NCBI RefSeq assembly: GCF_947495925.1
Contig: NZ_CANMAU010000006.1
Location: forward strand, 304,689 to 368,688
Length of the DNA stretch: 64,000 nt
Direction of reading: 5' to 3'
Source: an uncultured Algibacter sp.
Lineage (GTDB): Bacteria; Bacteroidota; Bacteroidia; Flavobacteriales; Flavobacteriaceae
Each line of letters begins with the position of its first letter. The stretch's first letter is position 1. Shown piece by piece: positions 11,113 to 48,788 of this stretch. The position numbers and the translations under genes are program-made. The notes under the pieces are model-generated. The model ran no database searches and was not told the DNA's origin. It saw only the letters and a list, made by a program, of their open reading frames with translations.

Positions 11113-11250
11113 CGCTAGTAGGCTTTTTCAACATGATTTCTAGGCAAAAAACAAAAGCCTTGAAAGCCTTAAATTTTGCGGGGAAATTAGCCTTATTTTG
11201 GCTCAAATTAAAATAAAATGGTTAAAATTCATTTTAATTGGTTTTAAGTT

Positions 11251-13956: not shown

Positions 13957-13983
13957 CTTTATATAGCAAGGCTATCAAAGATA

Positions 13984-32298: not shown

Positions 32299-32313
32299 AA
32301 GAAAGGTTAAAAA

Positions 32314-32763: not shown

Positions 32764-32773
32764 GCTTTAATTT

Positions 32774-33613
32774 TTACATTAAATTTAATTGATATTTTAC
32801 ATAGCTACGCATTAAAAGCTCAATTTTTTTAGGGTTCGATACTCTAATTCTAGAATCTTTTATTTTTAATGCAGGGGTTTTCTTGAGTTTTTTGAGTAGT
32901 TGACGATAATATCTATAGGCCATAAATACACCAAATTTAGCTTCTATTGGGAGTTTCTTTATGCCGCTAAGTCCTTTTTCAAAATCTGCTTCAATATCAT
33001 CTATAATACTTTGTTTAGAAGACTCGTCTAAGTTTTTTAAATCGGTATTAGGGAAATAGGTTCTATTTAAACCTTCAAAATCTGCCTTTAAATCTCTAAG
33101 GAAATTTACTTTTTGAAAAGCAGAACCCAGAGCCATAGCAGTTTCTTTTAACGCATTATACTTTTTATTATCGCCTTTTACAAAAACTTTTAAGCACATA
33201 AGGCCAACTACATCGGCAGAACCATATATGTAAGCTTTGTATTCTTCATCAGTTAAATAATCGGTTTTATGTAAATCTAAACGCATACTTTGCATAAATG
33301 CATCTACAAGTGATTTGTCTATATTATATTTATGAAACGTATGTTGAAATGAATTTAATATGGGATTGAGACTAATTTTATTTTTTAAAGCAAGTTCTAA
33401 ATCTTCAGTAAACCTATTGAAAAGCATTTCTTTATCATAGTCATGAAAGGTGTCAACAATTTCGTCAGCGAAACGCACAAAACCATAGATGTTATAAATA
33501 TCTCCTCTAATAGAACTGTATAACATTTTTGTTGCCAAAGAAAATGAGGTGCTGTAGGTTTTCGTTACAATTTTACTACTCCTATAGGATACTGAATCAA
33601 ATAACGACTTCAT
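32774..33613 (-). CDS. crtB: Phytoene synthase
   Basis: Joins two geranylgeranyl diphosphates into phytoene, the committed step. 279 residues of the squalene/phytoene synthase family. Both metal-binding Asp motifs are seen: RFADEIVDTFHDYD (first, about 46-59) and LRDLKADFEGLNRTYFP (second). YSTSFSLATKMLYSSIRGDIYNIY is the usual N-terminal signature. GGPP synthase (crtE) is not in the window and must come from elsewhere. 38 bases after crtI. Confidence 0.95.
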   Translation of the reverse strand: MKSLFDSVSYRSSKIVTKTYSTSFSLATKMLYSSIRGDIYNIYGFVRFADEIVDTFHDYDKEMLFNRFTEDLELALKNKISLNPILNSFQHTFHKYNIDKSLVDAFMQSMRLDLHKTDYLTDEEYKAYIYGSADVVGLMCLKVFVKGDNKKYNALKETAMALGSAFQKVNFLRDLKADFEGLNRTYFPNTDLKNLDESSKQSIIDDIEADFEKGLSGIKKLPIEAKFGVFMAYRYYRQLLKKLKKTPALKIKDSRIRVSNPKKIELLMRSYVKYQLNLM

Positions 33614-33651
33614 ATTACTGACAATTTCTTTTAAATTTAAACAAATTCATT

Positions 33652-35124
33652 TTAAACTAAAACATTATTATACTTTGAAACTAAATTAGCGGCGAGTTTT
33701 CCTGAGATTAATGATGGAGGAACTCCAGGTCCAGGTACAGTAAGTTGTCCTGTAAAATATAAATTTTTTACGGTTTTACTTTTTAGTTTTGGTCTTAAAA
33801 AAGCAGTTTGCATTAAGGTATTTGCCATACCATAGGCATTACCTTTATACGAATTGTAATCTTCGATAAAGTCATTAATACAAAAACTCTCTTTAAATAA
33901 TATATCTTGTTTTACAGTTTGAGAGGTGAGATTTTCAAAACGCGTAATTATTTTCTCAAAATAAGCCTTTCGTATTTTTGGAGTATCCTCTATTCCTGGT
34001 GCTAATGGAATTAGGAATATACCTGCTTCTTTTCCCTCAGGTGCGGTGCTAGAGTCTGTTTTACTAGGAAAACTAGCATAAAATAAGGGGTTTTTTGGCC
34101 ACTTTGGGTTATCATAAATAGCTTCGGCATGTGCTTCAAAATCAACATCAAAAAATAGGGTATGATGATTTACCTGTTTTAATTTTTTGTTGAAGCCCAC
34201 ATAAAAAAGAAGGGAAGAGGGAGCGAATGTTTTTTTTGACCAATACGTTTCAGAGTATTGACGAAAGGGTTCATCCAATAATGTTTCTGTATGATGATAA
34301 TCGGCACCGCTTAAAACAATATCAGAAAGATGCGATTCTCCATTAGAAATAAGGCCCTTAGCTTCCCCATTTTCAACTATAATTTTTTCAATGTTTGCTT
34401 CAGTCTTAATCATTACACCAAGTTCTTTTGCTAATTTTCCCATAGCTAAAATAACTTGGTACATCCCTTTTTTAGGATGAAAAGTACCTAACCCAAAATC
34501 GGCATAATTCATAAAACTATAGAAGGAAGGTGTGTCACTGGGTTTTGCTCCCAAAAACAGAACAGGGAACTCCAGAATCATCACTAAGCGTTCATTCTTA
34601 AACTCTTTACGCACATCTTTTTTTATAGTGCTAAAAAATTGATTGATTTTTTTTATGGTTGCTGGAGTAATTAATTCTAAGGGAGATACACCGGGGTTGT
34701 AAACAAGGTCTTTAATGGCAATATCATAATTGCTTTTGGCCTCGTCAATAAATTTTTTAAGTTTTACAGAACTTCCAGGTTCTTCTTTCTCAAACGCTTT
34801 TATAATTTTATCTAATGTATCCTCAATAGTTATAAAATCATCTTTTCCAAAATAAACGCTGTAAGCTGGATTAAGTTTTTCTAGAGTATAATAGTCGGCT
34901 GGAGCTTTATCAAAATCTAAAAAAAAACGTTCAAACACATCGGGCATCCAATACCAAGTTGGTCCAATGTCAAAGGTAAAACCTTCTTTTTTCAGTTGTC
35001 TTGCACGACCTCCTATAGTTTTGTTTTTTTCAAAAATAGTTACTTCAAAACCATCTTTAGCTAGATAGCATGCGGCTGCCAGAGAAGAGAAGCCAGAACC
35101 TATAATATTTACTGTTGGTTTCAT
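33652..35124 (-). CDS. crtI: Phytoene desaturase
   Basis: FAD enzyme that makes four desaturations from phytoene to lycopene; peripheral membrane protein. 490 residues from the ATG at 35124 (MKPTVNIIGSGFSSLAAACYL); an upstream in-frame ATG at 35157 would add 11 unneeded hydrophobic residues. Dinucleotide motif IIGSGFSSLAAA with IFEKNKTIGGRARQL, and the C-terminal LYFTGQLTVPGPGVPPSLISG typical of CrtI. Its start codon touches one arm of a perfect 10-bp inverted repeat that also contains a -7 box, so it may have a regulated promoter of its own behind the MerR gene. Confidence 0.95.
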   Translation of the reverse strand: MKPTVNIIGSGFSSLAAACYLAKDGFEVTIFEKNKTIGGRARQLKKEGFTFDIGPTWYWMPDVFERFFLDFDKAPADYYTLEKLNPAYSVYFGKDDFITIEDTLDKIIKAFEKEEPGSSVKLKKFIDEAKSNYDIAIKDLVYNPGVSPLELITPATIKKINQFFSTIKKDVRKEFKNERLVMILEFPVLFLGAKPSDTPSFYSFMNYADFGLGTFHPKKGMYQVILAMGKLAKELGVMIKTEANIEKIIVENGEAKGLISNGESHLSDIVLSGADYHHTETLLDEPFRQYSETYWSKKTFAPSSLLFYVGFNKKLKQVNHHTLFFDVDFEAHAEAIYDNPKWPKNPLFYASFPSKTDSSTAPEGKEAGIFLIPLAPGIEDTPKIRKAYFEKIITRFENLTSQTVKQDILFKESFCINDFIEDYNSYKGNAYGMANTLMQTAFLRPKLKSKTVKNLYFTGQLTVPGPGVPPSLISGKLAANLVSKYNNVLV

Positions 35125-35160
35125 ATTGTTTAACAAATATACAAAAAAGCTAAACAATAT
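35123..35160. promoter_or_regulatory. Inverted repeat with -7 box at the crtI start
   Basis: ATATTGTTTA (35123-35132) and TAAACAATAT (35151-35160) form a perfect 10-bp inverted repeat with an 18-base spacer in the 45-base gap between the MerR gene and crtI. A minus-strand TATATTTG (35141-35134) sits inside the spacer. It could be an operator over the crtI promoter or an mRNA hairpin at the start codon. Confidence 0.45.
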
Positions 35161-35169
35161 TAAAGTGTT

Positions 35170-36069
35170 TTAATATTCTTTAACTAAATTTTCTATAGAT
35201 TTAAATGTACTTACATTTTCCGGAAGATCACTTAAGTCTATATCATCCAGTTTTTTTCCTAAAAGTAGCAATTTTGTATGCTCTTTATTCAAAAGAAGTT
35301 CATTAAACTCTTTAAGGTATTGAGGAATTTGATCGGTCTGAGGATTAACCGTGAAGTATGAAATAAAAGTTATTTCTTCAAAAAATTCTAATAAATCAGT
35401 TAGACTTTCCATAGGGACACTTTCCCCAAGAAAAATAGTATGATAGCCTCTGCTTCTCAATTCATAGTTTATAAAAAGTAAACCTATATCATGAATCTCA
35501 CTGTCTGGGAGAAAAAGAACAAAAGTTTTAGAAGATGGTTTAGGTTCTAAAATCTGAAGACGCTCAATGTTTAAAAGTATTTTTTGTTTTATGTGTATAG
35601 ACAAAAAATGTTCGTGAGCAGGTGTTATCGTATTGGTTTGCCATAATAACCCTATCTCGTTCAATAAAGGAAGGAAAACAGAATAAAAGATTTCACTAAA
35701 GGTTTTATTTTCTAAAAGGTTGTTGTACGTGCTATAAAATAAAACCTGATCAAAATTAATCATGGCCATTTTTAGGGCATTAATGGCATGATCTTCTACC
35801 TTAGCTCTAGAGGCAATTTCTCTTACTTTAATTGGAATTTCTTCTTCTTTAAGGTTGGCAATTTTAGAAATTTTAAGGCCATTATTGTTTAAGTAAGATA
35901 TATTTAAGAGCTTTTGAAAGCTCAATAGGCTATAATTTCTAATATTAGTTTCACTGCGTTCTGGACTAAGTAAATTATAACGTTTTTCCCATATTCTTAT
36001 GGTATGGGCCTTAATTCCAGTAAGGTTCTCTAAGTCTTTAATGCTAAAATTAACCTTAATATTGTTCAT
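35170..36069 (-). CDS. MerR-family regulator with B12-binding domain (CarH/LitR-like)
   Basis: Likely light- and adenosylcobalamin-dependent repressor of the crt genes. 299 residues from the ATG at 36069; the upstream in-frame start at 36123 is rejected because it lies over the promoter. MerR winged helix 6-75 (FSIKDLENLTGIKAHTIRIWEKRY). Four-helix and B12-binding part: W143-x9-E153-H154 (LLWQTNTITPAHEH), the capping motif of CarH, and E191-x-H193-x2-G196 (EIHDIG), whose His is the lower cobalt ligand. The residue after W143 is Gln where Thermus CarH has H132. It is encoded directly upstream of crtI-crtB-crtZ-crtY. Confidence 0.88.
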   Translation of the reverse strand: MNNIKVNFSIKDLENLTGIKAHTIRIWEKRYNLLSPERSETNIRNYSLLSFQKLLNISYLNNNGLKISKIANLKEEEIPIKVREIASRAKVEDHAINALKMAMINFDQVLFYSTYNNLLENKTFSEIFYSVFLPLLNEIGLLWQTNTITPAHEHFLSIHIKQKILLNIERLQILEPKPSSKTFVLFLPDSEIHDIGLLFINYELRSRGYHTIFLGESVPMESLTDLLEFFEEITFISYFTVNPQTDQIPQYLKEFNELLLNKEHTKLLLLGKKLDDIDLSDLPENVSTFKSIENLVKEY

Positions 36070-36090
36070 TTTTTTATTCTTTTTCTTAAA

Positions 36091-36132
36091 CAAAAATACG
36101 TATATTTTTTCAGAACATAGCAAGAACTATGT
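36091..36132 (-). promoter_or_regulatory. Promoter and candidate operator of the MerR-crt operon
   Basis: Minus strand: TTG (36123-36121), 22 bases, then TATTTTTG (36098-36091), a full Bacteroidetes promoter. Over the TTG lie ACATAG-N6-CTATGT (36115-36120 and 36127-36132), a perfect inverted repeat, and two GTTCT elements exactly 11 bases apart, the repeat period of Thermus CarH operators. Binding here would block the -33 region. Confidence 0.5.
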
Positions 36133-36505: not shown

Positions 36506-36531
36506 TTAGGGTTTTTTTTACATTCTTGCCC
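36506..36531 (+). promoter_or_regulatory. Shared bipartite motif, copy 1 (TTAGGG-N14-TTGCCC)
   Basis: TTAGGG (36506-36511), 14 bases, TTGCCC (36526-36531), 66 bases before the ATG of the secreted protein at 36598. The same two boxes at the same spacing precede the genes at 40354 and 42369. The first box also falls in a short A/T-rich hairpin. Confidence 0.6.
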
Positions 36532-36597
36532 CATTGTAAATATAAGGATATAAGCAGTCTTTATGAATCTTAAATTAATAATTTAAAACACACAGAT

Positions 36598-37434
36598 ATG
36601 AAAACTAGAATCACAACATTTTTAATTACATTTTTTTTCACTTTATCCATATTCGCAGATAGTATTATTGTTGAAAGAAGTAATGGCAATTCTGAAAGTA
36701 TTAATTATAACTACAAGACAATTCTCAATAAAGGACTTAAAAATAATTTAGGAGACTTAATACATTTTGAGGATATTAATACAATAAGTACATCAGACTT
36801 TGATGCCTATGAAAAGATTTTAAGTAAAACACAAAGAAGGGGTTCTCATATTAAAGTCGAGTTTACCGGAGATATGAGTAAATATGCAAAACGATTAGAA
36901 AAGTTAAAACGTAATAGAGACGGAGCCGATGTGGCCAGAGGAGTAGGAGGTCTTATGTCTATAATAGGTGTTTTATCTGGAGACAGACAATTAACAGCAG
37001 CAGGAATTGCTGTTAACGGAGCTGGACAAATAGCACGTGATATTAATAATGATAGAACTATGGATACGCAAACCGCTATGCTGAAAGAACTTGACCAACG
37101 AACAAAGGTGGCAAAAGATTCTAATACATTTGAAGAAGAAAGTCTTCGTAAAGAATATGGGAATGAAAATGTAGATGGTGTAAAAGAGTTGATTAAGAAC
37201 AACCATAAAAAGGCTTTAGCCTATGCAAATTTAGCAGAGTTATCAGATAATAGTGATTATCAGTTAACGGCGGTATGGTTAAAAGCAATGATAGCGAAGG
37301 ATCAAAATAGCAAAGAAGAAGAAAGTAAAATATATCAAAGACTGGTAGACAAAGATCCTGAAATTAAAAACACCAATGAAGCTGAAAAGGAAACTAATAT
37401 TTTGGTTGAAGAGCTTTCAAAATGGAGAAATTAA
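36598..37434 (+). CDS. Secreted protein with glycine-zipper segment, unknown function
   Basis: 278 residues. Signal peptide 1-20 (ends LSIFADS). A short beta-rich N-terminal part (SIIVERSNGNSESINYNYKT) is followed by a basic helix and a glycine-zipper-like stretch (VARGVGGLMSIIGVLSGD, about 101-118, then AAGIAVNGAGQIARDIN). The C-terminal third is helical, charged and TPR-like (KKALAYANLAELSDN, LKAMIAKDQNSKEEE). Not a family I recognise. Glycine zippers are typical of proteins that insert in or tether membranes. It shares the TTAGGG-N14-TTGCCC motif with the second amidohydrolase and the outer-membrane operon. Bracketed by a terminator. Confidence 0.65.
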   Translation: MKTRITTFLITFFFTLSIFADSIIVERSNGNSESINYNYKTILNKGLKNNLGDLIHFEDINTISTSDFDAYEKILSKTQRRGSHIKVEFTGDMSKYAKRLEKLKRNRDGADVARGVGGLMSIIGVLSGDRQLTAAGIAVNGAGQIARDINNDRTMDTQTAMLKELDQRTKVAKDSNTFEEESLRKEYGNENVDGVKELIKNNHKKALAYANLAELSDNSDYQLTAVWLKAMIAKDQNSKEEESKIYQRLVDKDPEIKNTNEAEKETNILVEELSKWRN

Positions 37435-37475
37435 AAGAGAATGTTTCAATTCCATAATAATATAGTTATATTTTT

Positions 37476-37517
37476 AATCAAAGAACCTCTTACTATGTAA
37501 AAGGTTCTTTGATTTTT
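37476..37517 (+). terminator. Terminator of the glycine-zipper protein gene
   Basis: 13-bp stem (37476-37488 with 37502-37514) around AAAGAACCT/AGGTTCTTT, 13-base loop, ending in a run of five T (37513-37517). Confidence 0.8.
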
Positions 37518-37559
37518 ATAAACCAATAAAAATTGGAGTTTACGCGCTATTTAAAAATG

Positions 37560-38078
37560 CTATCGCATCTCGCTTTTAAACTTTTGTCCCCCTATGGATG
37601 CTTCATACATTAAGCCTCCTTTAGCATGAGTAAAAACTAATATACCATCACTATAATCAACATCGAAAGAAGCGCCTTCTGTAATAGCTACAGCTGTTGC
37701 TTGTGCAGAAAACTCAAACTTGTTTCCTGTAAACCTATCAAAAGCACTTTTGTGCTGAAAAAATATAATTTCAGAATACGATTGCCCACCTGCTTGAAGA
37801 CCGATTGTTAATTGAGACATCTTACAATCTCCAACTATTGAACCTCCTCTATAAACGGTTCCATTACCAGTTGCTCCACCAACACCTAATCCGCCTTTAC
37901 CTATAGAAGGGAAAACGGCGTAACCATAAGCGCTTGAAAAATATTTATTGATTTTATCATTTGTTTTTTTAAACTCTGATATGGCTTCGGCTGATTTACC
38001 TGAAACATCTTTTTGAGCAAAAGCATTTAATGTAAAAGCAATTAAAACTAAAACAATAATTGTAGATTTTGTTTTCAT
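37560..38078 (-). CDS. SYLF (YSC84-like) lipid-binding protein
   Basis: 172 residues. Signal peptide 1-21 (MKTKSTIIVLVLIAFTLNAFA). The mature part is a complete SYLF/Ysc84 domain: YAVFPSIGKGGLGVGGATGNGTVYRGG, IGLQAGGQSYSEIIFFQ, FEFSAQATAVAITEGAS and GLMYEASIGGQKFK. In other organisms the domain binds phosphoinositides or lipids; the bacterial exported form has no agreed role. Convergent with the glycine-zipper protein gene. Confidence 0.88.
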   Translation of the reverse strand: MKTKSTIIVLVLIAFTLNAFAQKDVSGKSAEAISEFKKTNDKINKYFSSAYGYAVFPSIGKGGLGVGGATGNGTVYRGGSIVGDCKMSQLTIGLQAGGQSYSEIIFFQHKSAFDRFTGNKFEFSAQATAVAITEGASFDVDYSDGILVFTHAKGGLMYEASIGGQKFKSEMR

Positions 38079-38526
38079 TATATATTCATTTTTAAAATTA
38101 TTAATAAATCACATCAATTTAAAAGTTTTCTATGAGCTAAAAAAATGTTTTAAAAGATAAATATGTTTTTGAAACCAATGATTGGACACTAAGTCATAAT
38201 ATCTTAAATGGTGCATGACAATTTCTTTACTATAATATTACTGTTTTTTTTATTGTCTTTACCATTTCTTAACTAAGGACAATAAAAAGTCTTAAAACAT
38301 AAAAAGTGAGAGTAACTACAGCTAAGAACCTCTGCATTAATTGGAATATTTTATGCGATTAACTTACCAAATAATACCGACCCATGAAAGAAAATGAGCT
38401 CTTAATTTTGTTCATATATAGAGGAAAGGTACCTCAAATTGGGTTTTATAAATGTTTTTAATTTTTGTTATCTTCGAAAGACAAGATCAAATTAGCTTTA
38501 AAACGAGATAACAAAATTAGATCCTT
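38079..38526. other. 448-base gene-free region before the amidohydrolases
   Basis: AT-rich gap between divergent genes. I see no RNA gene and no strong promoter. Near its end GTTATCT (38467-38473) and AGATAAC (38506-38512) form a spaced inverted repeat, and TATCTTCG (38469-38476) is one mismatch from a -7 box for the 38527 gene. ATTGGG followed by AAGACA at 38478 is reminiscent of the shared motif, but there is no TTGCCC. Confidence 0.4.
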
Positions 38527-40257
38527 ATGAACACATTTAAAAAAACAGTAAAAAGTGCAATAGTATTAATTGTACTTACATTAATTGTGAGCTGTAAATC
38601 TGAAAAAAAGGAAGATGCGGCAGATATGGTTTTTACAAACGGAAAAGTCTATACGGTTAATAAAAATGAACCTTGGGCAGAGTCAGTTGCTATAAAAGAT
38701 GACAAAATAGTATTCGTGGGCTCATCTGAAGAAGCTAAAAAATATATTGATGAACATACAGAAACAACAGATTTAAATGGAAAAATGATGCTTCCGGGAT
38801 TTGTTGATGCACATTCTCACCCTATTGCAGGTGGTTTAATTATGACAGGTATCGATTTACAATCAGACGATACCAATGAAATATTCAATAAACTAAAAAA
38901 ATATGTTACTAAAAATTCTGACCATAAAATTGTTCAAGGCTATGGTGTAAGATTTAATCCTTGGAATGGAAATTGGCCAACAGCCAAAATGTTGGATGAA
39001 ATAGAGTCTGAACGTCCAGTTTATTTATGGACTATCGATGGTCATGGTGCATGGGTAAATTCAAAAGCCTTAGAATTAGCAGGTATTGATAAAAATACGC
39101 CTGAGCCAGTTCCGGGATATTCTTTTTTTACAAGAGATAATGAAGGAAATCCAACAGGATGGATTGTAGAGTTACCGGCACAAATGCAAGTACTGAATGC
39201 TTTAGTGAAAGTAGATTCAGATTATATTGCTAGAGGTGTTGCCGAATGGTTACCAAGATTTGCTGCATCTGGATTGACATCCATTCAAGATTTAGGAATG
39301 GGCGGGCAGCCTGAGGATATGGGCTTTGCTTTATTTCAAAAATTAGAAGAAGAAGGAAAACTACCTATACGATTACAAGGCGTTTATTATTGGAATAATC
39401 CAGAAATTGATCCGATACCAGAAATTGTTAGATTGCGAAAAACCTTTAATTCTGAATTAGTAAAAGCCACTCATTTAAAAATTAATGTAGATGGGGGAGA
39501 TGATAAACACAACGCATTATATGTAGATGGTTATGCAGATAAGCCTGAATTAAAAGTTGACCCTATTATTCCCGTAGCCATAATTAATGATGCTGTGCAT
39601 AGGGCAGACTCCCTTGGTATTGATATTGCAAGTCATTGTTTTGGTGATGGTGCGGTAAGAATAATTTTAGATGCTGTAGAATTGGCAAGAAAAGCAAATC
39701 CAGATAGAAAGCGTTATAACCTTATAAATCATGGTTTATTAATTCATCCTGATGATTATTCACGCTTTAAGGAATTAGATGTCGCCTATGAAACTACTGG
39801 AGCATGGATGTCTCTAGATCCAGCTATGATAGATATTACCATGAAAAGATTGGGGGAAGAACGAGTTAATTTGTACGCGCCAGTGAACAAAATTCATGCC
39901 TTAGGTGGGAGAGTAGCGTTAGGGTCAGATTGGCCAGTTTCAGGTTATATTTCAGAATATAGACCATTGTCAGAAATTCAAGGTGCCGTTACACGACAAT
40001 TACCTGGCAGAGAAAACTTCCCGCCATTGGGAGGAGAATCTGCTAAAATTCCTTTGGACCTAGCTTTGTTTATGCAAACTTATGGTGCAGCTGATGCCAT
40101 GGGCATTTCTAATATTACAGGTTCGATTGAAAAAGGAAAGAAGGCGGATTTAGTAATATTAGAAAAAAATCTTTTTGACGTGCAGCCTAACGAAATATCA
40201 ACGGTAAAAGTACTTTCAACAATGCTTAATGGGAAATATACCCATCAATCAAATTAG
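38527..40257 (+). CDS. Amidohydrolase family 3 lipoprotein, paralogue 1
   Basis: 576 residues. Lipobox TLIVSCKS puts it on a membrane outside the cytoplasm. It has the YtcJ/N-substituted formamide deformylase-type amidohydrolase layout: N-terminal strand FTNGKVYTVNKNEPWAESVAI, metal motif GFVDAHSHPIAGG, HLKINVDGG with the bridging-lysine position, ASHCFGDGAV, NHGLLIHPDD, and GSDWPVSG with the catalytic Asp. The C-terminus returns to a beta-sandwich (GSIEKGKKADLVILEKN). Hydrolyses an amide-type bond; substrate unknown. The closest relative is the next gene (same N-terminal 45 residues in outline), so this is a tandem duplication. Confidence 0.88.
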   Translation: MNTFKKTVKSAIVLIVLTLIVSCKSEKKEDAADMVFTNGKVYTVNKNEPWAESVAIKDDKIVFVGSSEEAKKYIDEHTETTDLNGKMMLPGFVDAHSHPIAGGLIMTGIDLQSDDTNEIFNKLKKYVTKNSDHKIVQGYGVRFNPWNGNWPTAKMLDEIESERPVYLWTIDGHGAWVNSKALELAGIDKNTPEPVPGYSFFTRDNEGNPTGWIVELPAQMQVLNALVKVDSDYIARGVAEWLPRFAASGLTSIQDLGMGGQPEDMGFALFQKLEEEGKLPIRLQGVYYWNNPEIDPIPEIVRLRKTFNSELVKATHLKINVDGGDDKHNALYVDGYADKPELKVDPIIPVAIINDAVHRADSLGIDIASHCFGDGAVRIILDAVELARKANPDRKRYNLINHGLLIHPDDYSRFKELDVAYETTGAWMSLDPAMIDITMKRLGEERVNLYAPVNKIHALGGRVALGSDWPVSGYISEYRPLSEIQGAVTRQLPGRENFPPLGGESAKIPLDLALFMQTYGAADAMGISNITGSIEKGKKADLVILEKNLFDVQPNEISTVKVLSTMLNGKYTHQSN

Positions 40258-40292
40258 AGTTTTTAAAAAAAATTAAAAAAAAATATTTTCTA

Positions 40293-40318
40293 TTAGGGAT
40301 TTAGAATCATAATTGCCC
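40293..40318 (+). promoter_or_regulatory. Shared bipartite motif, copy 2 (TTAGGG-N14-TTGCCC)
   Basis: TTAGGG (40293-40298) and TTGCCC (40313-40318) with 14 bases between, 35 bases before the ATG at 40354. Further similarity to copy 3: AAGACA starts 12 bases after TTGCCC in both. Confidence 0.7.
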
Positions 40319-40353
40319 TGTTGTTAATAGAAGACACATAAAATTTTATTCAA

Positions 40354-42201
40354 ATGAAAACAATTAAATTAGTAGTTAGCCTTTTTGTAGCTTTTATCAT
40401 AATAAGCTGTAAATCTGAAATCAAAAAAGATATAGCCGATCAGGTATTTACCAATGGTAAAGTGTATACAGTAAACAAAGCCCAACCTTGGGCCGAAGCT
40501 GTGGCTATTAAAGATAATAAAATTGTATTTGTAGGGTCCACTGCTGGTGCACAGGCTTATATTGGTAAGGCAACGAAAACTACGGACTTAAAAGGAAATA
40601 CCATGTTGCCTGGTTTTGTAAGTGCTCACGATCACCTAATCGCTTCTGGATGGACCACTTTAGGGGTTCAAATTTATGATGCCAAGGATAAGGTAGATGC
40701 ATTGGCAAAAATAAAGGCATATGCTGAAGCTAATCCAGACAAGAAGGTTATCCAAGGTATTGGATGGGATCAAGGTATGTTGGGGGGCTTGCCAACAGCA
40801 AAAGATTTAGATGCTGCAGTACCCAACAGACCTGCTTTTATTTTAGATAATACCATTCATGACGGTTGGTTAAATACAGCGGCTTTGAAAGCTGCGAATA
40901 TTACTAAAGATACACCAGATACCGTTCCCGGAGTAACCTACTGGGTGCGTGATGCATCAGGTACGCCAACGGGGGTTGCTATTGAAATACAATGGTTTGA
41001 TGCCTATGGAGAAGTGGCCTGGGATGCTGAAAGTATGATTAAAGAAAGTGCAGAACAATTATATGCCATTGCTGCCAGTAATGGAACAACAACTTTTTTA
41101 TGCCCGGGTATTGTAACCCCCAATATTAAAGATGTGCATGACGGGATGGAGAAAGATTTTGAAGCAGCTCTTAAATTATTACATTCTTGGGAAGAAGATG
41201 GATCTTTAAAAATGAGAACGGTTGCTGTGCCTATGTACAAATCTGCGGTTGGAGAACCACAAAAGTTTGTCGATTTTGGTGTGAAAATGAATAAAAAGTA
41301 TAATTCGGATAAATTGAAAGTTACGCATTTAAAAATTCATCCCGAAGGTAATACCGTTGCAGGAACCGCACCACATTTTGATAATTATCAGGGTATGGAT
41401 ACCAATGGGTCTTTTAATGTGCAACCAGAAGAAACCATGGCTATTGTGACGCAAGCGGCTCAAGTTGGATTAGATGTTGTTATTCATACGGATGGAGACC
41501 GTTCAACAAGAGCTGCACTTAATGCTATTATTGCAGCACGTGAGATTAATCCAGATAATAGAAGCGCGCTTCATCATTTAATTTGGGCACACCCAGATGA
41601 TCAACAACGTATTATTGATTATGGCATACCTGTAAACTCAACACCTAATTTTACCAACACATTTGGTAATGGAGATAAGGATAACTTAAAATGGCGTGGC
41701 GCAGACCAGATTAATACATCCTTAGGACGTTACCCATATTTAGCTAGAAATGGTGTTAAGGTCAGTATCTCTGCAGATGTGCCTAGTACACCGTCAACTA
41801 TGCAAGGCCCATTATATGTAGCAACTAATGCGGTAACCTTGCGAGATATATCAGATCCAACCTCAAGACCGTTTCCTGAAAATCGTAAACCTATGACTGT
41901 TGAAGAAGCTATTCGGGCCATTACCATCGATGCGGCTTGGCAATTAAGAATGGATGATAAGGTAGGAAGTATAGAAGTTGGTAAGCTTGCAGATTTAGTG
42001 ATTCTAGAAGAAAGTCCGTTTGATGTTGCTCCAGAAGATATAGCAAATATTACAGTAAACGCGACTATTATGGATGGTAAATACACCCATAGAAAAGATG
42101 AAAGAACGGCTGGGTCATTTAAAAATGAAAAACGTTTTCCGCCAATGCCAACAGAATTGAAAGGATGTGGACATGGCGTTATGACAGATCATAGTCATTA
42201 G
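40354..42201 (+). CDS. Amidohydrolase family 3 lipoprotein, paralogue 2
   Basis: 615 residues, lipobox AFIIISCKS. Same layout as the preceding gene: VFTNGKVYTVNKAQPWAEAVAIKDN, GFVSAHDHLIASGW (metal-binding HDH), HLKIHPEGN, IHTDGDRSTRA, HHLIWAHPDD, and ISADVPSTPST with the catalytic Asp. It differs in a C-terminal extension with Cys and His (KGCGHGVMTDHSH). It has its own motif-bearing promoter and a strong terminator, so it is a separate transcript from its duplicate. Probably acts on a substrate crossing the outer membrane; which one is unknown. Confidence 0.88.
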   Translation: MKTIKLVVSLFVAFIIISCKSEIKKDIADQVFTNGKVYTVNKAQPWAEAVAIKDNKIVFVGSTAGAQAYIGKATKTTDLKGNTMLPGFVSAHDHLIASGWTTLGVQIYDAKDKVDALAKIKAYAEANPDKKVIQGIGWDQGMLGGLPTAKDLDAAVPNRPAFILDNTIHDGWLNTAALKAANITKDTPDTVPGVTYWVRDASGTPTGVAIEIQWFDAYGEVAWDAESMIKESAEQLYAIAASNGTTTFLCPGIVTPNIKDVHDGMEKDFEAALKLLHSWEEDGSLKMRTVAVPMYKSAVGEPQKFVDFGVKMNKKYNSDKLKVTHLKIHPEGNTVAGTAPHFDNYQGMDTNGSFNVQPEETMAIVTQAAQVGLDVVIHTDGDRSTRAALNAIIAAREINPDNRSALHHLIWAHPDDQQRIIDYGIPVNSTPNFTNTFGNGDKDNLKWRGADQINTSLGRYPYLARNGVKVSISADVPSTPSTMQGPLYVATNAVTLRDISDPTSRPFPENRKPMTVEEAIRAITIDAAWQLRMDDKVGSIEVGKLADLVILEESPFDVAPEDIANITVNATIMDGKYTHRKDERTAGSFKNEKRFPPMPTELKGCGHGVMTDHSH

Positions 42202-42239
42202 TTGTTATAAATTTTTAAAAAAAAGTAAAAAAATAAATG

Positions 42240-42287
42240 CAGCAAAGCCTTGTTATCTCTGGTTTAACAAAGCTTTGCTGTTTTTTT
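42240..42287 (+). terminator. Terminator of the second amidohydrolase gene
   Basis: 16-position stem with one mismatch (42240-42255 with 42265-42280), nine-base loop, then seven T. Confidence 0.9.
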
Positions 42288-42308
42288 ATCAAAAAATATA
42301 ATTTTTCA

Positions 42309-42334
42309 TTAGGGGTTTTGCTGTCTTTTTGCCC
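42309..42334 (+). promoter_or_regulatory. Shared bipartite motif, copy 3 (TTAGGG-N14-TTGCCC)
   Basis: TTAGGG (42309-42314) and TTGCCC (42329-42334), 14 bases apart, 34 bases before the ATG at 42369. TATTATTG (42338-42345), one mismatch from the -7 box, follows and would place TTAGGG at about -35. AAGACA follows 12 bases after TTGCCC as in copy 2. Confidence 0.7.
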
Positions 42335-42368: not shown

Positions 42369-43157
42369 ATGAAAACTTTAAGACAATTACTAATCGCTTT
42401 AACCTTATTTACTTCTCTAATGATCGTGGCTCAAAATGAGAGTAAACAACAAACGGCTGCTTCCAATGAAGAACAGTCTATTGATACTTCAAAACCTACA
42501 AATTTTTATTCTTTTGTAGATAATACTTTAGAATTTTCAAGTCAGGAAAACCAGAATGTTATGGGATACAGAGGGAAATTAACCTTGGCGCCTTCAGCAG
42601 AACATTTAATACTTTTTGAAGCGCCGTTGTTGTATAATGACAGAACAGATAAATTGGGAGTAGGTGATTTAAGAGCAAGATATTTTTGGTTACCTTATAA
42701 GAATTACGATAAAACCATCGGTGCTTTTGGACCATCAATTGATGTTTTTGCCCCAACAGGTAATTTTGAAAATGGTTTAGGTTCTGGACGATGGATTGTA
42801 TCTCCAGGGGTAACTGTAGGCATCATGGCGGCAGATTGGATTCAATTCTTTCCAATAGCGTCTTATCAATATGCTAGTAAACCGGTATATAATAACCCAG
42901 CTCCAGCTTTAGATGTGGCAACACATGGATTGTCTTTTCAAGTAATTACGCCAATTGTATTCTCTGATAAGTTTTTTATGCAAGTAACGCCTGTTTTTAA
43001 AATGAATAATTTTAATGATGAGCGCCAAGATAGATTTGAACAAGAGGTGTTTGCGGCTTATAGCTTAAACTCTAAAATGCAACTAACAGCCTTTTATAGT
43101 GGTAAATTTGAAGATGAAAATCATACCGTAAGTGCTGGCTTATCCGTTTTCTTTTAA
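42369..43157 (+). CDS. Outer-membrane beta-barrel, MetA-phenol-degradation/transporter type
   Basis: 262 residues. Signal peptide 1-21 (ends LMIVAQ). The mature part alternates short amphipathic strands and ends in Phe (LSVFF), as outer-membrane barrels do. The patterns KTIGAFGPSIDVFAPTGNFENGLGSGRW and ADWIQFFPIASYQY resemble the family called MetA-pathway of phenol degradation (a putative transporter barrel). First gene of the six-gene operon; followed by a second barrel of the same type. Confidence 0.7.
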   Translation: MKTLRQLLIALTLFTSLMIVAQNESKQQTAASNEEQSIDTSKPTNFYSFVDNTLEFSSQENQNVMGYRGKLTLAPSAEHLILFEAPLLYNDRTDKLGVGDLRARYFWLPYKNYDKTIGAFGPSIDVFAPTGNFENGLGSGRWIVSPGVTVGIMAADWIQFFPIASYQYASKPVYNNPAPALDVATHGLSFQVITPIVFSDKFFMQVTPVFKMNNFNDERQDRFEQEVFAAYSLNSKMQLTAFYSGKFEDENHTVSAGLSVFF

Positions 43158-43182
43158 TCTAAAAAACCAACTGAAGTTCACT

Positions 43183-44076
43183 ATGATCAAGTTAAAGGTT
43201 TTAATCATTCTAGTATTGTGTTTGGGCAGTATTCAAGGAAATGCTCAAGCCGTTTCGGGACATTATGGACCTGGATTATTCGGACTCCGATCGGCACATG
43301 GGTTTCCCATGGATTGGTCCTATGTCAATGTTACCCATATTTATTATGCAGCCGAAATGAAAGATAATGTGGGAAATATTTCAACACTGTCAAAACCTAT
43401 TAACGTCATTGCAAATATTAGTGGCGGAATTTGGGGAACAAAAATAGATAAGATTAAGGCAAACTATAACGCAGCTGTAATTTTACCTTTTACCAATCTA
43501 GCGCCCAACCCTGAAACTTTAGAACTCAATCCAGACAACATTGGTTTGGGTGATATTAAAGTGATTCCTTTAATGCTAACCTGGAATTTTAAACAATTTG
43601 CTTTAAATACACGATATGCGTTTTGGGCCCCAACAGGAAGTTTTGATATGAATTCAAAATCTAATAAAGGAAAAGGGTTTTGGTCTCACAATATTGGCCT
43701 TGGAGGTACAGTTTATCTGGATGCAAAAAAATCATGGAATGTAAGTTTGATGAATACTTTTGAGTTTAACGGAAAACAAAAAGGCACTCAAATTACCCCA
43801 GCATCAACGCACGTCATGGAGTATGGTGTTGGCCGTACGTTTGACGAGGTTTTTAATATGGGAATCATTGGGTATAGAACCAAACAAATAGGAAGTCAAA
43901 AAGGAGTAACTTTGCCTGAAGAACTTAATAGCTATGAGGTAAGTGCCCTTGGTATGGAGTTTAATTATCGCACTAAAAGTAATTGGGCGTTTATTACTCG
44001 CTGGTATTTAGAATATAATGGTGTTAACAGACCAGAAGGTTCGGCGATTCGATTTATTTTCTTGAAAAACTTTTAA
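43183..44076 (+). CDS. Outer-membrane beta-barrel, MetA-phenol-degradation type
   Basis: 297 residues from the ATG at 43183; a longer frame from a GTG at 43132 overlaps the previous gene and would bury the signal peptide. Signal peptide 1-20 (ends IQGNAQ). The family pattern is YGPGLFGLRSAHGFPMDWSYVNVTHIYYAA, ALNTRYAFWAPTGSFDMNS and NIGLGGTVYLDAKKSWN, with a terminal Phe (IFLKNF). Related barrels sit beside catabolic genes for aromatic or hydrophobic compounds in other bacteria. The role here is inferred to be uptake across the outer membrane. Confidence 0.72.
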   Translation: MIKLKVLIILVLCLGSIQGNAQAVSGHYGPGLFGLRSAHGFPMDWSYVNVTHIYYAAEMKDNVGNISTLSKPINVIANISGGIWGTKIDKIKANYNAAVILPFTNLAPNPETLELNPDNIGLGDIKVIPLMLTWNFKQFALNTRYAFWAPTGSFDMNSKSNKGKGFWSHNIGLGGTVYLDAKKSWNVSLMNTFEFNGKQKGTQITPASTHVMEYGVGRTFDEVFNMGIIGYRTKQIGSQKGVTLPEELNSYEVSALGMEFNYRTKSNWAFITRWYLEYNGVNRPEGSAIRFIFLKNF

Positions 44077-44079
44077 TCT

Positions 44080-45240
44080 ATGAAATTGAGATATTGTTTA
44101 TTTTTTTTGATAGTATTCGGCTTAACAAACGCATTTGCACAAGATGACGAAGAAAAAGGTTTGATTGAAAACAATATGAAAGCGATTTATGTAAAGAAAG
44201 ATCAAAGCGAAATTTCAACATTAAAAGACCGGTTTGATAAATGGGCCTATTCGAATAAAAAACACGCACCTTTCTTTTATTTTTCACCACTCTATCAATA
44301 TGGGACCGGGTCTTCGGCAAGTGCCAATAATTTACATTCCGATTTAGGAATTATTTATAAATGGCGAACCGTAAAAAAGGATAAATGGAAAATGAATATT
44401 CATGGTTGGTTGGAACAAACAAGTTTTTGGGCCGGAGAGACTACTAGTGATTTTGGCAAAAAACTGGGCATGATTACAACACCAAACGCCTCCTCTGAAA
44501 CTGGTCATGATTTAAGCTTAGAACAATTAATGGTTGAATTTTTCTTTTTCAATCAAAAGTTAGATATCTCTGTGGGTAAATTTGACCCTATGTATTTAAC
44601 TGTTTTTACGGATTATTCAGGATGGGATAAGTACAATTATTTTATGAAAAGTGTGGCTTCAGATCCGGTTCCCGATATGGGAGCAGGTATGGGGGTTTAT
44701 TCTGAATACCACTTAAGTGAGAACTTTAGTTTTGGAGCAGTAATTTCAGATAATGATGCCAGAAATAACTATTTATATATCCCAGATTTTGATAGCTCAT
44801 GGAATTATTTGGGTTTTCTACGTTTTAAGATTGGAGCGGCAAAAGGATTGTACTCTAGCCATAATCTTATGTTTTATAGTCAGGATGCAAAAGAAGGACA
44901 GTCATCTGGATCTGGGTTTGTGTATACTGCAAATCAGGGACTTACAGATAATTTGATTTTAGTGTTAAAAGTATCAAATGGAAGTGGTAATATAGATAAA
45001 TTAAATGCCGCTTATGTTGCAGGTTTGACATTTAAGAGGCCTTTAAATAGAATTCAAGACCAAGCGGGATTTGCTTTAGTTATGAATGAAAAAGCGGGGA
45101 ATTATGAGTATGGTTTGGATACCTATTACCGCTATTTTATTAATGAGTATATTAACGTAGCTCCTAATTTTCAATTGATTAATACCGTTAACGATAAGTT
45201 TAATGCGGTTTTTGGTTTAAGAACATTTATACAATACTAA
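44080..45240 (+). CDS. Outer-membrane porin, OprB-like
   Basis: 386 residues. Signal peptide 1-20 (ends TNAFAQ), then a charged linker with DDEEKGLIENNMK, then a barrel with the carbohydrate-porin-like pattern LMVEFFFFNQKLDISVGKFDPMYL and a C-terminal strand ending in aromatic residue (LRTFIQY). It starts three bases after the previous stop. The OprB comparison is by pattern only; substrate not known. Confidence 0.62.
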   Translation: MKLRYCLFFLIVFGLTNAFAQDDEEKGLIENNMKAIYVKKDQSEISTLKDRFDKWAYSNKKHAPFFYFSPLYQYGTGSSASANNLHSDLGIIYKWRTVKKDKWKMNIHGWLEQTSFWAGETTSDFGKKLGMITTPNASSETGHDLSLEQLMVEFFFFNQKLDISVGKFDPMYLTVFTDYSGWDKYNYFMKSVASDPVPDMGAGMGVYSEYHLSENFSFGAVISDNDARNNYLYIPDFDSSWNYLGFLRFKIGAAKGLYSSHNLMFYSQDAKEGQSSGSGFVYTANQGLTDNLILVLKVSNGSGNIDKLNAAYVAGLTFKRPLNRIQDQAGFALVMNEKAGNYEYGLDTYYRYFINEYINVAPNFQLINTVNDKFNAVFGLRTFIQY

Positions 45241-45243
45241 TTT

Positions 45244-46704
45244 ATGAGGCTTGCTTTTTTATGTGCGCTTGTTTTAATATTAGCAAATTCTAACCAGGTC
45301 TTTGGACAAGAAAACAACTATTGGTTTAATAATTTTGGAGCTATATCTACTCTAAAAGGTGGTGTTGAGGTAGGCGGTGTTAATACAGTCTCGGCGTTTT
45401 ATTATAACCCAGGAGCCATTAGTTTTATTGAAGGGGAGTTTTTAGAAGGTCAAGCCGATTTATTAACTGTAGAGGTTTATAATATTAAGAATGCTACAGG
45501 TGATGGTCTGGATGTAAGTGTTGTTCCCGTCGATATTGCCCCTTCGATATTTGGATATTATAAAAGACTTAAAACAAAACCCAAATGGTCTTATGTGATA
45601 GGGGTGCTTTCGCGCTATCAATCTAATATTTCTTTTAACTCGTCTTATGAGGTAGAAGGCAATTATTTATTACCAGAAAATGAGCCCGATATTTTTCAAG
45701 GACAATTTAATTATGACAATAGAATTAGGGAGAATTGGTTAAACGGAACCTTAGCTTATAGGCTGAATAAACATGTTGGTTTGGGATTAGGTCTTAATCT
45801 TGTTATTAGATCCCAAGACTTCTTTAGAGATTATATGGCTCGAGCATTTCCTAAAGAAGAATTGGGAAATAGCACGTTTTCAAAGCTTGCTACTACAAAT
45901 GAAGAAGAGCGTTTAGGGTATAGGTCCACAGGTCTTAGTTTTAAACCAGGTGTTAATTTTAGATTTGAGCGATTAAAACTGGGATTAACGTGTACAACAC
46001 CATTATTAAATTTAGGTTTGTTAAATAATAGGTCTTCGAAATCATTTACAAGTATAATGCCTGACAGGAATGAACAAAATTATAATGTTTCGAATAGTCA
46101 TAATTTTTATAGAGCCGAGTATCATACACCATTTTCAATAAGTATAGGTGCCGAGTATCAGTTTGAAAAATGGAGTTTGGGAACCGCTCTAGAGTGGTTT
46201 TCAAAGGTAAAACCTTATAAAATGATAAGAATGGGCGATGATGGAATAAATCAAATGTTTAGCACTGCTGCAGAGTCTGGCTTTGCTATTCCTGTCATGG
46301 CGAGTAAAGCGATTGTTAATGCAGGAATAACATGTGCATATAGTTTTAGCCCTAAAATGAAATACGTTGGAAGTTTTCGTACTGATTTCAATGCTTTTGA
46401 TGAATCTGCCCTTGATAGAAATGTTGATTTTGTGCCAAATATAACATTTTGGGATATTTACCATTTTGCTTCGGGTCTTGTCCTAACTGGACCAAGAGCC
46501 AATTTAAGTTTTGGGGTAGATTATGGCTACGGGAGTGCAAGTAATTATTCACAATTTGTAAATATGACAAATGCTAATCAATCTAATTTTTTAAAAGGTA
46601 CTGTTAATAACTCTGTGTCTTCTATTTATAATAACATTAGTATTACTTTGGGCCTTAACGTTAACATTGATAAAAGGAAAGGACTCAAATCAAATAAAAT
46701 CTAA
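45244..46704 (+). CDS. FadL/TodX-like outer-membrane transport protein
   Basis: 486 residues. Signal peptide 1-21 (ends NQVFGQ). The FadL-like N-terminal plug pattern GGVEVGGVNTVSAFYYNPGAISFIEG is followed by many amphipathic strands. GYYKRLKTKPKWSYVIGVLSRY and FSISIGAEYQFEKWSLGTALEWF are typical of the OMPP1/FadL/TodX family that takes up fatty acids and aromatic hydrocarbons. It lies three bases after the previous stop. The C-terminus is charged rather than aromatic, which is unusual for a barrel end. Confidence 0.68.
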   Translation: MRLAFLCALVLILANSNQVFGQENNYWFNNFGAISTLKGGVEVGGVNTVSAFYYNPGAISFIEGEFLEGQADLLTVEVYNIKNATGDGLDVSVVPVDIAPSIFGYYKRLKTKPKWSYVIGVLSRYQSNISFNSSYEVEGNYLLPENEPDIFQGQFNYDNRIRENWLNGTLAYRLNKHVGLGLGLNLVIRSQDFFRDYMARAFPKEELGNSTFSKLATTNEEERLGYRSTGLSFKPGVNFRFERLKLGLTCTTPLLNLGLLNNRSSKSFTSIMPDRNEQNYNVSNSHNFYRAEYHTPFSISIGAEYQFEKWSLGTALEWFSKVKPYKMIRMGDDGINQMFSTAAESGFAIPVMASKAIVNAGITCAYSFSPKMKYVGSFRTDFNAFDESALDRNVDFVPNITFWDIYHFASGLVLTGPRANLSFGVDYGYGSASNYSQFVNMTNANQSNFLKGTVNNSVSSIYNNISITLGLNVNIDKRKGLKSNKI

Positions 46705-46710
46705 AAATTC

Positions 46711-47835
46711 ATGAAACCTATTAAAGTGTTAGTCATTGTTTTTCTTGCTAGTATGGCTACAAGTAATGCTCAATCTTTTAAAAAAAACTTTATTTCTGAA
46801 GAAGATGGAGCTGTTGATGTTAGTGGGTTTTTAAATTCTACTACGGGTTTTTTACCAGTACCTATTATTATTACAGAACCTGCAGTAGGTTATGGAGGCG
46901 GTTTAGCCATAGCGTATTTTCATAAAAAAAAGGATGATAAAGAAGCAAAAGGATTGTCTCCAACTGTAAGTATGTTGGCAGGGGCTTTAACCGAAAATGG
47001 AACGTGGTTAGCAGCCATTGGACATCAGGGTTCATATGCAAACGATAGAATTCGGTACTTAGGCTTTTTAGGCTATGTAGCACCAAAACTGGCTGTCTAT
47101 TTTGGTCCAAATGACTTATTAGAAGGCAAGTTTGATTTTGAAATGAATGGTTTTGCTACCATGCATGAGGTTTTATATCGAGTTAATAAAAAAGTGCCGT
47201 TTTTTGCTGGCCTGAACTATTCCTTTTTTACTAATACCGTGAAATTTGATACAGGAATTGATATTCCTGAGTTTAGTACTTTTGAGAGAGATACGAATTT
47301 AGGAGGTATTAATGCATCTTTTTTATATGATACTAGAAATAATTCGTTTACACCTACAAAAGGCATTATGAGTGGTTTGGAATTAGGACGATTTGCCACC
47401 TATTTTGGAGGAGATTCAGATTTTTGGAATATATCATCAAGAACTTATGCGTATTTGCCCATTATTGAAAACAAATTATTTTCAGGCTATCGTTTAAGTA
47501 TAGAATCTAAACCTGGCGATGTGCCGTTTTATGCACTTCCTGATATAAGTTTAAGGGGAATACCCATGCTAAGATATCAGGGAGCTAATGCTTACACCGT
47601 GGAAACAGAATGGCGTTGGAATTTTTATAAGCGCTGGAGTGTGGTGGGGTTTGTTGGTATGGGAGAAGCTATGAAAGACTTTAGTGAATTAGGGAAAAGT
47701 ATTAAAGCAGCAGGTGGAGGTGGGTTTAGGTATTATTTGGCTAAAGATTACGGCTTACACGTTGGTGTTGATGTGGCGCGAGGACCAGAAATTTGGGCAT
47801 GGAATTTAACAATTGGTAGTAACTGGTTTAGGTAA
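46711..47835 (+). CDS. BamA/TamA-family (Omp85 barrel) protein without POTRA domains
   Basis: 374 residues. Signal peptide 1-20 (ends SNAQS). The barrel begins at once (STTGFLPVPIIITEPAVGYGGGLAIAYFH), with no POTRA repeats before it. FLYDTRNNSFTPTKGIMSGLELG and YRLSIESKPGDVPFYALPDISLRG match the bacterial surface antigen (Omp85 C-terminal) family; it ends in NWFR after a barrel strand. It begins seven bases after the previous stop. Short POTRA-less forms are known in Bacteroidetes, function unclear. Confidence 0.75.
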   Translation: MKPIKVLVIVFLASMATSNAQSFKKNFISEEDGAVDVSGFLNSTTGFLPVPIIITEPAVGYGGGLAIAYFHKKKDDKEAKGLSPTVSMLAGALTENGTWLAAIGHQGSYANDRIRYLGFLGYVAPKLAVYFGPNDLLEGKFDFEMNGFATMHEVLYRVNKKVPFFAGLNYSFFTNTVKFDTGIDIPEFSTFERDTNLGGINASFLYDTRNNSFTPTKGIMSGLELGRFATYFGGDSDFWNISSRTYAYLPIIENKLFSGYRLSIESKPGDVPFYALPDISLRGIPMLRYQGANAYTVETEWRWNFYKRWSVVGFVGMGEAMKDFSELGKSIKAAGGGGFRYYLAKDYGLHVGVDVARGPEIWAWNLTIGSNWFR

Positions 47836-47855: not shown

Positions 47856-48788
47856 ATGACTGAAAGAGAGGTCTTAGAAAAAATTGAGATTAAAGGGTTA
47901 AAAGCTGGAGTTTTTGCGAATATACTTATGGCAATTGCAGGGTGGTATGCATATTCTATAACAAACTCTGAAGCCTTATTTTTGGATGGCAATTTTTCCT
48001 TTATCGCGGCATTGTCGACTATAGTTGCCATTATGATTGTTAAAATTAAGCATAAGCGCACTGAAGTTTTTCCGTTTGGTAGATATTTCCATGAATCCTT
48101 TTTTGTGTTTTTTAAAGGTCTGCTTATTCTTGGAGTGACCATTGGAGCGTTATTTCAAAATGTTATAAAAATTATAGATTATACTAATGGAGAAAAATTC
48201 CAAACACTTAACCCAAAGCCAATATTATATTATAGTGCAGTTATGGGAGTTATTTGTTTTTCATTAGCTTTTTATTACAAGAAGAAAAACAAGGAGCTCG
48301 GCGGTATGAGTTCGATTTTAAATGTGGAAGGCAAAACTGCTATGATCGATGGATTTCTTTCAGTAGCTGTGGGGTTAGCTCTTTTTTTAACAACGCTTGT
48401 TCCGTCAGATTCAAGTATTAGCTTCTTGCTGTATATTGGAGATGCAATGGTTGTTATAATTCTTGCTTTATATTTATTAGGAATTCCAGTTAAAGTTATT
48501 AAAGATACATTTGTTGAAATGGGTGGAGGTGTTATTCAAAATGTAGAGGTGAAGTCTGATATTTTAGATATTCTGAATAGCAACTTACCTGATGATTTTA
48601 AATTGGCAGCTCATTACATTAGTAAAACAGGGAGTGGATATTTTGTGGTTGTTTATATTTTGCCCAAAACAGATGAGGTTTCAGTTATGCGTTTAAATAA
48701 AACAAGAATGGCTATTTTGAATGACTTAAAATTGAAATACCTTAATGTTGAAGTCGAGATTGTAGTTGGACAAGGTGAGCAATCTTAG
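47856..48788 (+). CDS. CDF-family cation transporter with altered metal site
   Basis: 310 residues with six membrane helices and a C-terminal cytoplasmic domain (about 225-310), as in the cation diffusion facilitator family. PFGRYFHESFFVFFKG corresponds to the family helix-3 motif. The zinc site is not standard. In YiiP it is D-x3-D on helix 2 and H-x3-D on helix 5. Here helix 2 has D44-x3-S48 and helix 5 has T161-x3-D165. Metal specificity is therefore unclear. Last gene of the operon, 20 bases after the BamA-like gene, followed by a strong terminator. Confidence 0.85.
   Translation: MTEREVLEKIEIKGLKAGVFANILMAIAGWYAYSITNSEALFLDGNFSFIAALSTIVAIMIVKIKHKRTEVFPFGRYFHESFFVFFKGLLILGVTIGALFQNVIKIIDYTNGEKFQTLNPKPILYYSAVMGVICFSLAFYYKKKNKELGGMSSILNVEGKTAMIDGFLSVAVGLALFLTTLVPSDSSISFLLYIGDAMVVIILALYLLGIPVKVIKDTFVEMGGGVIQNVEVKSDILDILNSNLPDDFKLAAHYISKTGSGYFVVVYILPKTDEVSVMRLNKTRMAILNDLKLKYLNVEVEIVVGQGEQS

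Follow-up and report, generated by a model that had tools for sequence, protein, structure and literature searches.

A 64,000-nt stretch of the genome of an uncultured Algibacter sp. from the Flavobacteriaceae (RefSeq assembly GCF_947495925.1, contig NZ_CANMAU010000006.1, positions 304,689 to 368,688 of the forward strand), called the window below, carries three copies of the bipartite motif TTAGGG-N14-TTGCCC. Sequence comparison indicated that these copies are likely -35/-10 promoters for an extracytoplasmic function (ECF) sigma factor that is ECF43-like and belongs to PF07638/TIGR02999. The gene for this sigma lies near such promoters and the same targets in relatives but was not found in the strain's own assembly. 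The initial annotation of the window had offered two options for the motif, an activator site or a promoter for an alternative sigma factor. The second fits better, since the element has ECF-like -35/-10 geometry and stands near one sigma/kinase/phosphatase module across several orders of Bacteroidota, before the same genes. The activator option fits less well, and the housekeeping -7 box invoked for copy 3 is not needed because TTGCCC overlaps the proposed -10. The copies, their rarity, the extended element, the orthologous sites and the association with the module were all computed, as was the lack of a regulator match in the searched assembly.

The element and its predicted targets

Exact copies of the motif were found at the three places listed below, all on the + strand, and the window holds no further exact copy on either strand, as had been claimed. 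An element-like degraded stretch, which was not counted as a site, stands 88 nt upstream of the first amidohydrolase gene (38527-40257). For the held-out scores in the list, the own genome was left out of the matrix training.

36506..36531, + strand: copy 1 of the element, exact match; proposed -35 TTAGGGTTTT at 36506-36515; proposed -10 beginning in TTGCCC at 36526-36531; held-out score 29.5
40293..40318, + strand: copy 2 of the element, exact match; TTAGGGATTT ... TTGCCCTGTTG, then GAAGACA; held-out score 43.0
42309..42334, + strand: copy 3 of the element, exact match; TTAGGGGTTT ... TTGCCCTTCTA, then GAAAGACA; held-out score 46.5
38439..38483, + strand: degraded stretch; TTGGGTTTT ... TTTTGTTATCTTCGAAAGACA; leave-genome-out score -4.1

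The distance from the end of the copy to the ATG is 66, 35 and 34 bases for copies 1, 2 and 3, in agreement with the annotated range of 34-66 bases, and the shared AAGACA does lie 12 bases past TTGCCC in copies 2 and 3. It occupies the place of AAGGGCA or AAGGACA in the sites of G017, the other genome of the genus that was compared. In the strongest G017 sites (L041 8134-8159 and 5874-5899), TTTGCCC is followed by GGGCAAA, which forms an inverted repeat around the proposed start.

The triple had been described as far beyond chance. No exact match appeared in 100 dinucleotide shuffles of the window, and the own genome (3,843,889 bases in 39 contigs) contains only these three, all on the + strand inside 6 kb, against none for the reversed-pattern control. 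When up to one mismatch to the hexamer pattern was allowed, 10 matches were obtained in the own genome versus 6 in the control, so hexamer near-matches by themselves are not specific.

The two hexamers proved to be the core of a longer element, TTAGGGtTTTt-N10-tT.CcCT.tTat.aaT.aaa (consensus of 34 sites). Conservation in these 34 sites of relatives falls on (T)TAGGG.TTT and C.CT..T and does not extend to the G of TTGCCC. The training set contains sites of G017 and of a further relative, G145, and none of the own genome (G000) or of G169; at least one of its sites, L184 11768 within an open reading frame (ORF), is probably false. With the held-out matrix, the next-best place in the window after the three copies scored 7.1, and the best score among 20 Markov-1 shuffled windows was also 7.1. 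The part of the score that lies outside both hexamers was +17.1, +16.7 and +11.4 for the window copies. Copy 1 is the weakest of the three and has CCCC in place of the consensus CCCT. A chance origin of the copies was rejected on the basis of the whole-genome counts, the shuffles and the held-out matrix. The longer pattern with three mismatches allowed gave 12 matches in the own genome versus 7 in the control; for this reason, only matches with at most two mismatches were followed, namely the three copies and a fourth site on contig C2 (C2:401342).

An exact hexamer match is present in 88 of the 397 genomes of the family. Among 28 such matches scored from genomes other than G000 and G017, 26 were negative outside the hexamers, as accidental matches would be, and only those of G145 and G169 were positive. 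The idea that the element is common to the whole family was rejected on these 26 failures, most of the remaining matches of the 88 genomes being unscored. The matches in G142, G240, G226 and G382 were likewise discarded: two lie within ORFs, one just upstream of an opposite-strand ORF and one at 52 nt before a gene, and none has a class-like continuation.

Read as a promoter, the element would likely have TTGCCC as the upstream edge of its -10 (CCCTnTTA). The spacing between AGGG and CCCT is like that of ECF -35/-10 pairs. A search of titles and abstracts of open-licence papers found nothing on the element. The genes that follow the three copies, in order, are:

36598..37434, + strand: first target, a 278-aa secreted protein that matches no Pfam or NCBIfam entry, named "glycine-zipper" in the initial annotation
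40354..42201, + strand: second target, an amidohydrolase (PF07969) of 615 aa
42369..43157, + strand: third target, OM1, the first gene of the outer-membrane operon, 262 aa, without Pfam match

The 278-aa protein had 35 matches at E ≤ 1e-10 in a large database, itself included. The same element was found before the same genes in relatives. G017 has eight exact copies: a run of six spans 18 kb, and the other two lie on a different contig. In stretches L040-L042, they precede the 278-aa secreted protein (twice), an amidohydrolase and the outer-membrane operon, as well as an amidase, a choloylglycine-hydrolase-like protein and a DDAH/arginine-deiminase-like protein. In the syntenic stretch of G145 (L066), each of the three copies has an orthologous counterpart whose spacer and flanks differ; the distance from TAGGG to the start codon is 62, 59 and 55 nt, compared with 91, 60 and 59 nt in the window. 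The fourth own-genome site is shared as well: in G145 it stands before the syntenic relative of the gene that it precedes here.

L066:9555, - strand: orthologous to copy 1
L066:5495, - strand: orthologous to copy 2
L066:3428, - strand: orthologous to copy 3

The presence of the element was then counted by gene family, with 10 as the lowest score accepted in the 250 nt upstream, over 18 stretches of nine genomes, each genome being scored with a matrix that left it out. It precedes 36 of the 94 genes of classified families, which include operon-internal and module genes, versus 6 of 207 other genes. The enrichment check asked for in the initial annotation covers these 18 stretches rather than whole genomes. 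Several families owe their selection to the element standing before them in the window or in G017, so only the other genomes give an independent test. The counts by family were as follows:

PP2C phosphatase 6/7, 278-aa protein 8/9 (window gene included), OM1 7/8 (window gene included), family of the C2 gene 3/3
amidase 2/2, DDAH-like 2/2, choloylglycine-hydrolase-like 2/3
amidohydrolase of the second type 4/9 (window gene included; a fifth is in G145), of the first type 0/5
PF13557 barrel 1/4, OM3 1/5, OM2 0/3, OM4 0/4, OM5 0/5
cation efflux 0/7, Ysc84 0/4, kinase 0/6, sigma 0/8

For the G145 amidohydrolase, the called start lies too far upstream, hence its entry as a miss; the site is 60 nt before a better start. 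The predicted targets are mostly putative C-N hydrolases and outer-membrane or secreted proteins.

The sigma/kinase/phosphatase module in relatives

The initial annotation had suggested that a regulator gene might co-occur with the motif. This holds in relatives, where the gene encodes an ECF sigma factor of PF07638/TIGR02999; it was not found in the own genome. Two of the G017 copies, on contig C5, lie within a compact module of this sigma factor, a 774-aa Ser/Thr kinase and a PP2C phosphatase. The G017 sigma scored 195.4 bits with TIGR02999 (cut-off 126.15) and 170.9 bits with PF07638 (cut-off 21.1). When at most eight candidates per genome were scored, it was found at E ≤ 1e-15 in 4 of the 397 family genomes (G017, G145, G237 and G252), which probably represent Algibacter mikhailovii, Algibacter onchidii, Lutimonas halocynthiae (G252) and Flavicella marina. 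OM1 reaches at least 62% identity in all four of them, at least 59% in 6 of 397 genomes and 31-39% in nine more; the co-occurrence of sigma and OM1 has a hypergeometric P of 1.5e-8, with a cut-off chosen post hoc at the gap between 59% and 39%. In G025, which has OM1 at 59% and no sigma, no site was found within 352 nt.

A contig scan for the sigma found 206 relatives, from which 80 loci were kept, 17 from Bacteroidota (nine from Flammeovirga) and 63 from other or unassigned phyla. A matrix from seven distinct G017 sites found the element in the sigma loci of Algibacter onchidii, Lutimonas, two Flavicella and one genome each of Prolixibacteraceae, Bacteroidales and Carboxylicivirga; in its reversed controls, the only match across the scanned stretches was a weak one (8.8, in L042). 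With a core expression, which misses an exact Lutimonas copy (seen otherwise) and takes in a few matches within ORFs, sites were present in 8/8 of the Bacteroidota sigma loci outside Flammeovirga. The 63 other loci (867,890 bases) gave one match versus one in the reversed control. In L070, a metagenome-assembled genome of Prolixibacteraceae, the matrix finds eight places that score 8 or more within 20 kb around the sigma gene; several of them are not directly before a called ORF.

A relative of the kinase is encoded in 15 of the 17 Bacteroidota sigma loci; the exceptions are L070 and L074, where none was found. Two hydrophobic stretches of the kinase lie near residues 95-115 and 437-460, and its C-terminal PknB-like domain has HRD and DFG invariant in 13/13 aligned sequences. 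The sensor part between the two membrane helices is predicted to adopt a dCache (double-Cache) fold, the same predicted fold as in the dCache domains of chemoreceptors and histidine kinases (PscC, DctB, PctA and others); unlike in PscC, DctB and PctA, the modelled domain would here be joined to a Ser/Thr kinase.

Region 2.2 of the sigma reads QPT[IL], with Thr64 in 20/20 aligned sequences; an ECF of the own genome has EAED there. The acidic DxxD of this region is replaced, and a Thr stands at the position of EcfK Thr51, as is characteristic of ECF43. The sigma is called ECF43-like here by its profile match, its kinase neighbour and its region-2.2 motif rather than by published group models. 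According to the available passages of three papers (PMC8999054, PMC13147305, PMC8103513), the worked cases of this group are EcfP/PknT of Vibrio parahaemolyticus and EcfK/PknS of Xanthomonas citri, in which an ECF likewise lies beside a Ser/Thr kinase, and EcfP and EcfK are phosphorylated at a Thr of region 2.2 whose position matches Thr64. The region-2.2 consensus of ECF43 is given as QTTA in the part of PMC13147305 that was available. The passages of the three papers contained no ECF43 promoter consensus for comparison. The module described here differs from the EcfP and EcfK systems in its occurrence in Bacteroidota, in the C-terminal kinase domain with a dCache-like sensor and in the PP2C gene under the element. 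Its targets are hydrolases and outer-membrane proteins, whereas those systems serve, in the same passages, a type VI secretion system or polymyxin resistance. Another ECF-type promoter class with dispersed targets in Flavobacteriaceae is SM6 of Flavobacterium psychrophilum (PMC9723704, in part); it differs in its CGT box at -10, its type IX secretion genes and its anti-sigma/sigma pair, and TAGGG did not occur in the searched text of that paper, which does not cover the logos.

From these data we infer promoter function, the -35/-10 assignment, phosphorylation, a signal, feedback and the fate of the regulon in the own strain. In the proposed mechanism, the periplasmic dCache-like sensor would perceive a small molecule, and the cytoplasmic Ser/Thr kinase would phosphorylate the sigma at Thr64. 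The phosphate may supply the negative charge that region 2.2 needs for binding of RNA polymerase. The holoenzyme would then read TTAGGGtTTTt-N10-(T)CCCTnTTA and switch on the secreted C-N hydrolases, the outer-membrane proteins and the 278-aa secreted protein. The PP2C phosphatase would also be switched on and would likely turn the sigma off again; this negative feedback is predicted because the PP2C gene is under the element in 6/7 cases. In the own genome, the regulon may be orphaned by a recent loss or read by another sigma, or the regulator may lie in an assembly gap. For a sigma of Bacteroidota that is likely kinase-activated, the analysis provides a candidate regulon and promoter consensus, to be set beside EcfP of Vibrio and EcfK of Xanthomonas in the above passages. 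In the compact module of dCache-like kinase, sigma and PP2C with the element, the phosphorylation, the feedback and the promoter reading are directly testable, and the own strain would be a natural test of the fate of a regulon once its sigma is gone or replaced.

The regulator of the own genome and alternative explanations

Several results weigh against the assignment of the element to this sigma. No such sigma was found in the own assembly, where the best sigma match has 28% identity over 98 residues and the PF07638 profile gave eight weak matches of 20-33 bits, the best being 32.8; none of the own-genome ECFs qualified as close kin by profile and sequence comparison. The kinase had no match in the own genome at E ≤ 0.001, in a search without positive control, and the Pkinase profile, with control genomes positive, reached 28.3 bits in a single match, under its cut-off of 31.7. 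Any stretch masked as N could conceal a gene from these searches. Sites without such a sigma at E ≤ 1e-15 also occur in a second genome, G169: its two good sites, L205 10031(-) and L206 9350(-), stand one before a relative of OM1 (38%) and one before a predicted lipoprotein without Pfam match. Among the Flammeovirga sigma loci, the element was found in 1/9, plus one weak matrix match (8.4). In Lutimonas (G252), a second relative of the 278-aa protein has no element. Autoregulation of the sigma was considered and rejected, with 0/8 sigma genes preceded by the element.

As the own assembly has sites without a regulator, the regulator was recently lost, another sigma is used, or the locus is missing from the assembly. 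Synteny with the left flank of the G017 sigma locus runs in the own genome as far as a tRNA-Asp gene, after which the two diverge. There (L182, about 9873-14059, contig C1), a 184-nt stretch starting in tRNA-Asp is repeated about 3.8 kb away, where the synteny ends. The two copies lie around a gene that may encode an integrase, an arrangement like that at integration sites. No remnant of the sigma, kinase or PP2C was matched by tblastn in this flank (L182); PP2C was sought in the own genome at the DNA level and in L182 only, not by a protein search. The C2 regulon gene (L187 8241-9314, minus strand) has one in-frame stop after residue 242; its relatives in G017 and G145 have 364-365 aa, and beyond the stop the same frame stays homologous up to the relative's end. 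The own-genome sites (39.0, 38.6, 33.7 and 33.4) are not weaker than those in sigma-bearing genomes, which counts against simple decay. We favour a recent loss or replacement of the regulator over an assembly gap. A bolder version, in which the regulon outlived its regulator, so that here and separately in G169 another sigma reads the promoters of the vanished kinase-controlled sigma and the regulon was rewired with its promoters unchanged, is tentative and on the whole rather unlikely.

The sites without sigma in the own genome and in G169 could also be explained if the element were an activator binding site with two half-sites about two helical turns apart; both cores are GC-rich and about 20 bp apart, centre to centre. 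This is improbable, because the sites stand at an ECF-like distance before start codons in a single orientation and follow the loci of one sigma across orders. In addition, no conserved DNA-binding regulator besides the sigma was seen among the compared gene families, which was not a full search for one. The same two genomes would be accounted for by a different ECF sigma common to all these genomes, with the TIGR02999 module being only a frequent target or neighbour, and this would also fit a sigma gene that lacks the element. Yet 393 of the 397 family genomes have no such sigma at E ≤ 1e-15, and together with the 26/28 hexamer matches that fail outside the hexamers this makes a widely shared reader not apparent, no genome-wide matrix scan having been run in those genomes; we give this explanation little weight.

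Ordinary housekeeping sigma A promoters (TTG at -33, a TAnnTTTG-like -7), alike through local duplication, are another conceivable source of the copies: copy 3 has TATTATTG near a fitting place, and two neighbouring genes of the window are amidohydrolases of one family. However, the spacers and flanks differ between the copies, which have no common -7 box, and in other orders the element is found before non-homologous genes. Sigma A promoters would also not be confined to three exact copies in 3.84 Mb, and this origin is very improbable. The assignment to an ECF43-like sigma is retained as the best explanation of the three copies.

Other features of the window

The OM1 gene is followed by the rest of the outer-membrane operon and by a gene of the cation-efflux family. 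The four operon genes are likely co-transcribed with OM1, and no element of their own was found before them in the window.

43132..47835, + strand: remaining outer-membrane operon, four genes, with PF13557, OprB and Omp85 matches and a below-cut-off FadL-like match
47856..48788, + strand: cation-efflux family gene after the operon, in the same order in G017 and G145

A carotenoid-type operon (lycopene cyclase, fatty-acid hydroxylase family, phytoene synthase, desaturase-like) occupies 31153-36123 of the window. At its head stands a MerR regulator that carries a B12-binding domain (35170-36123), and the operon adjoins the cluster both here and in G145.

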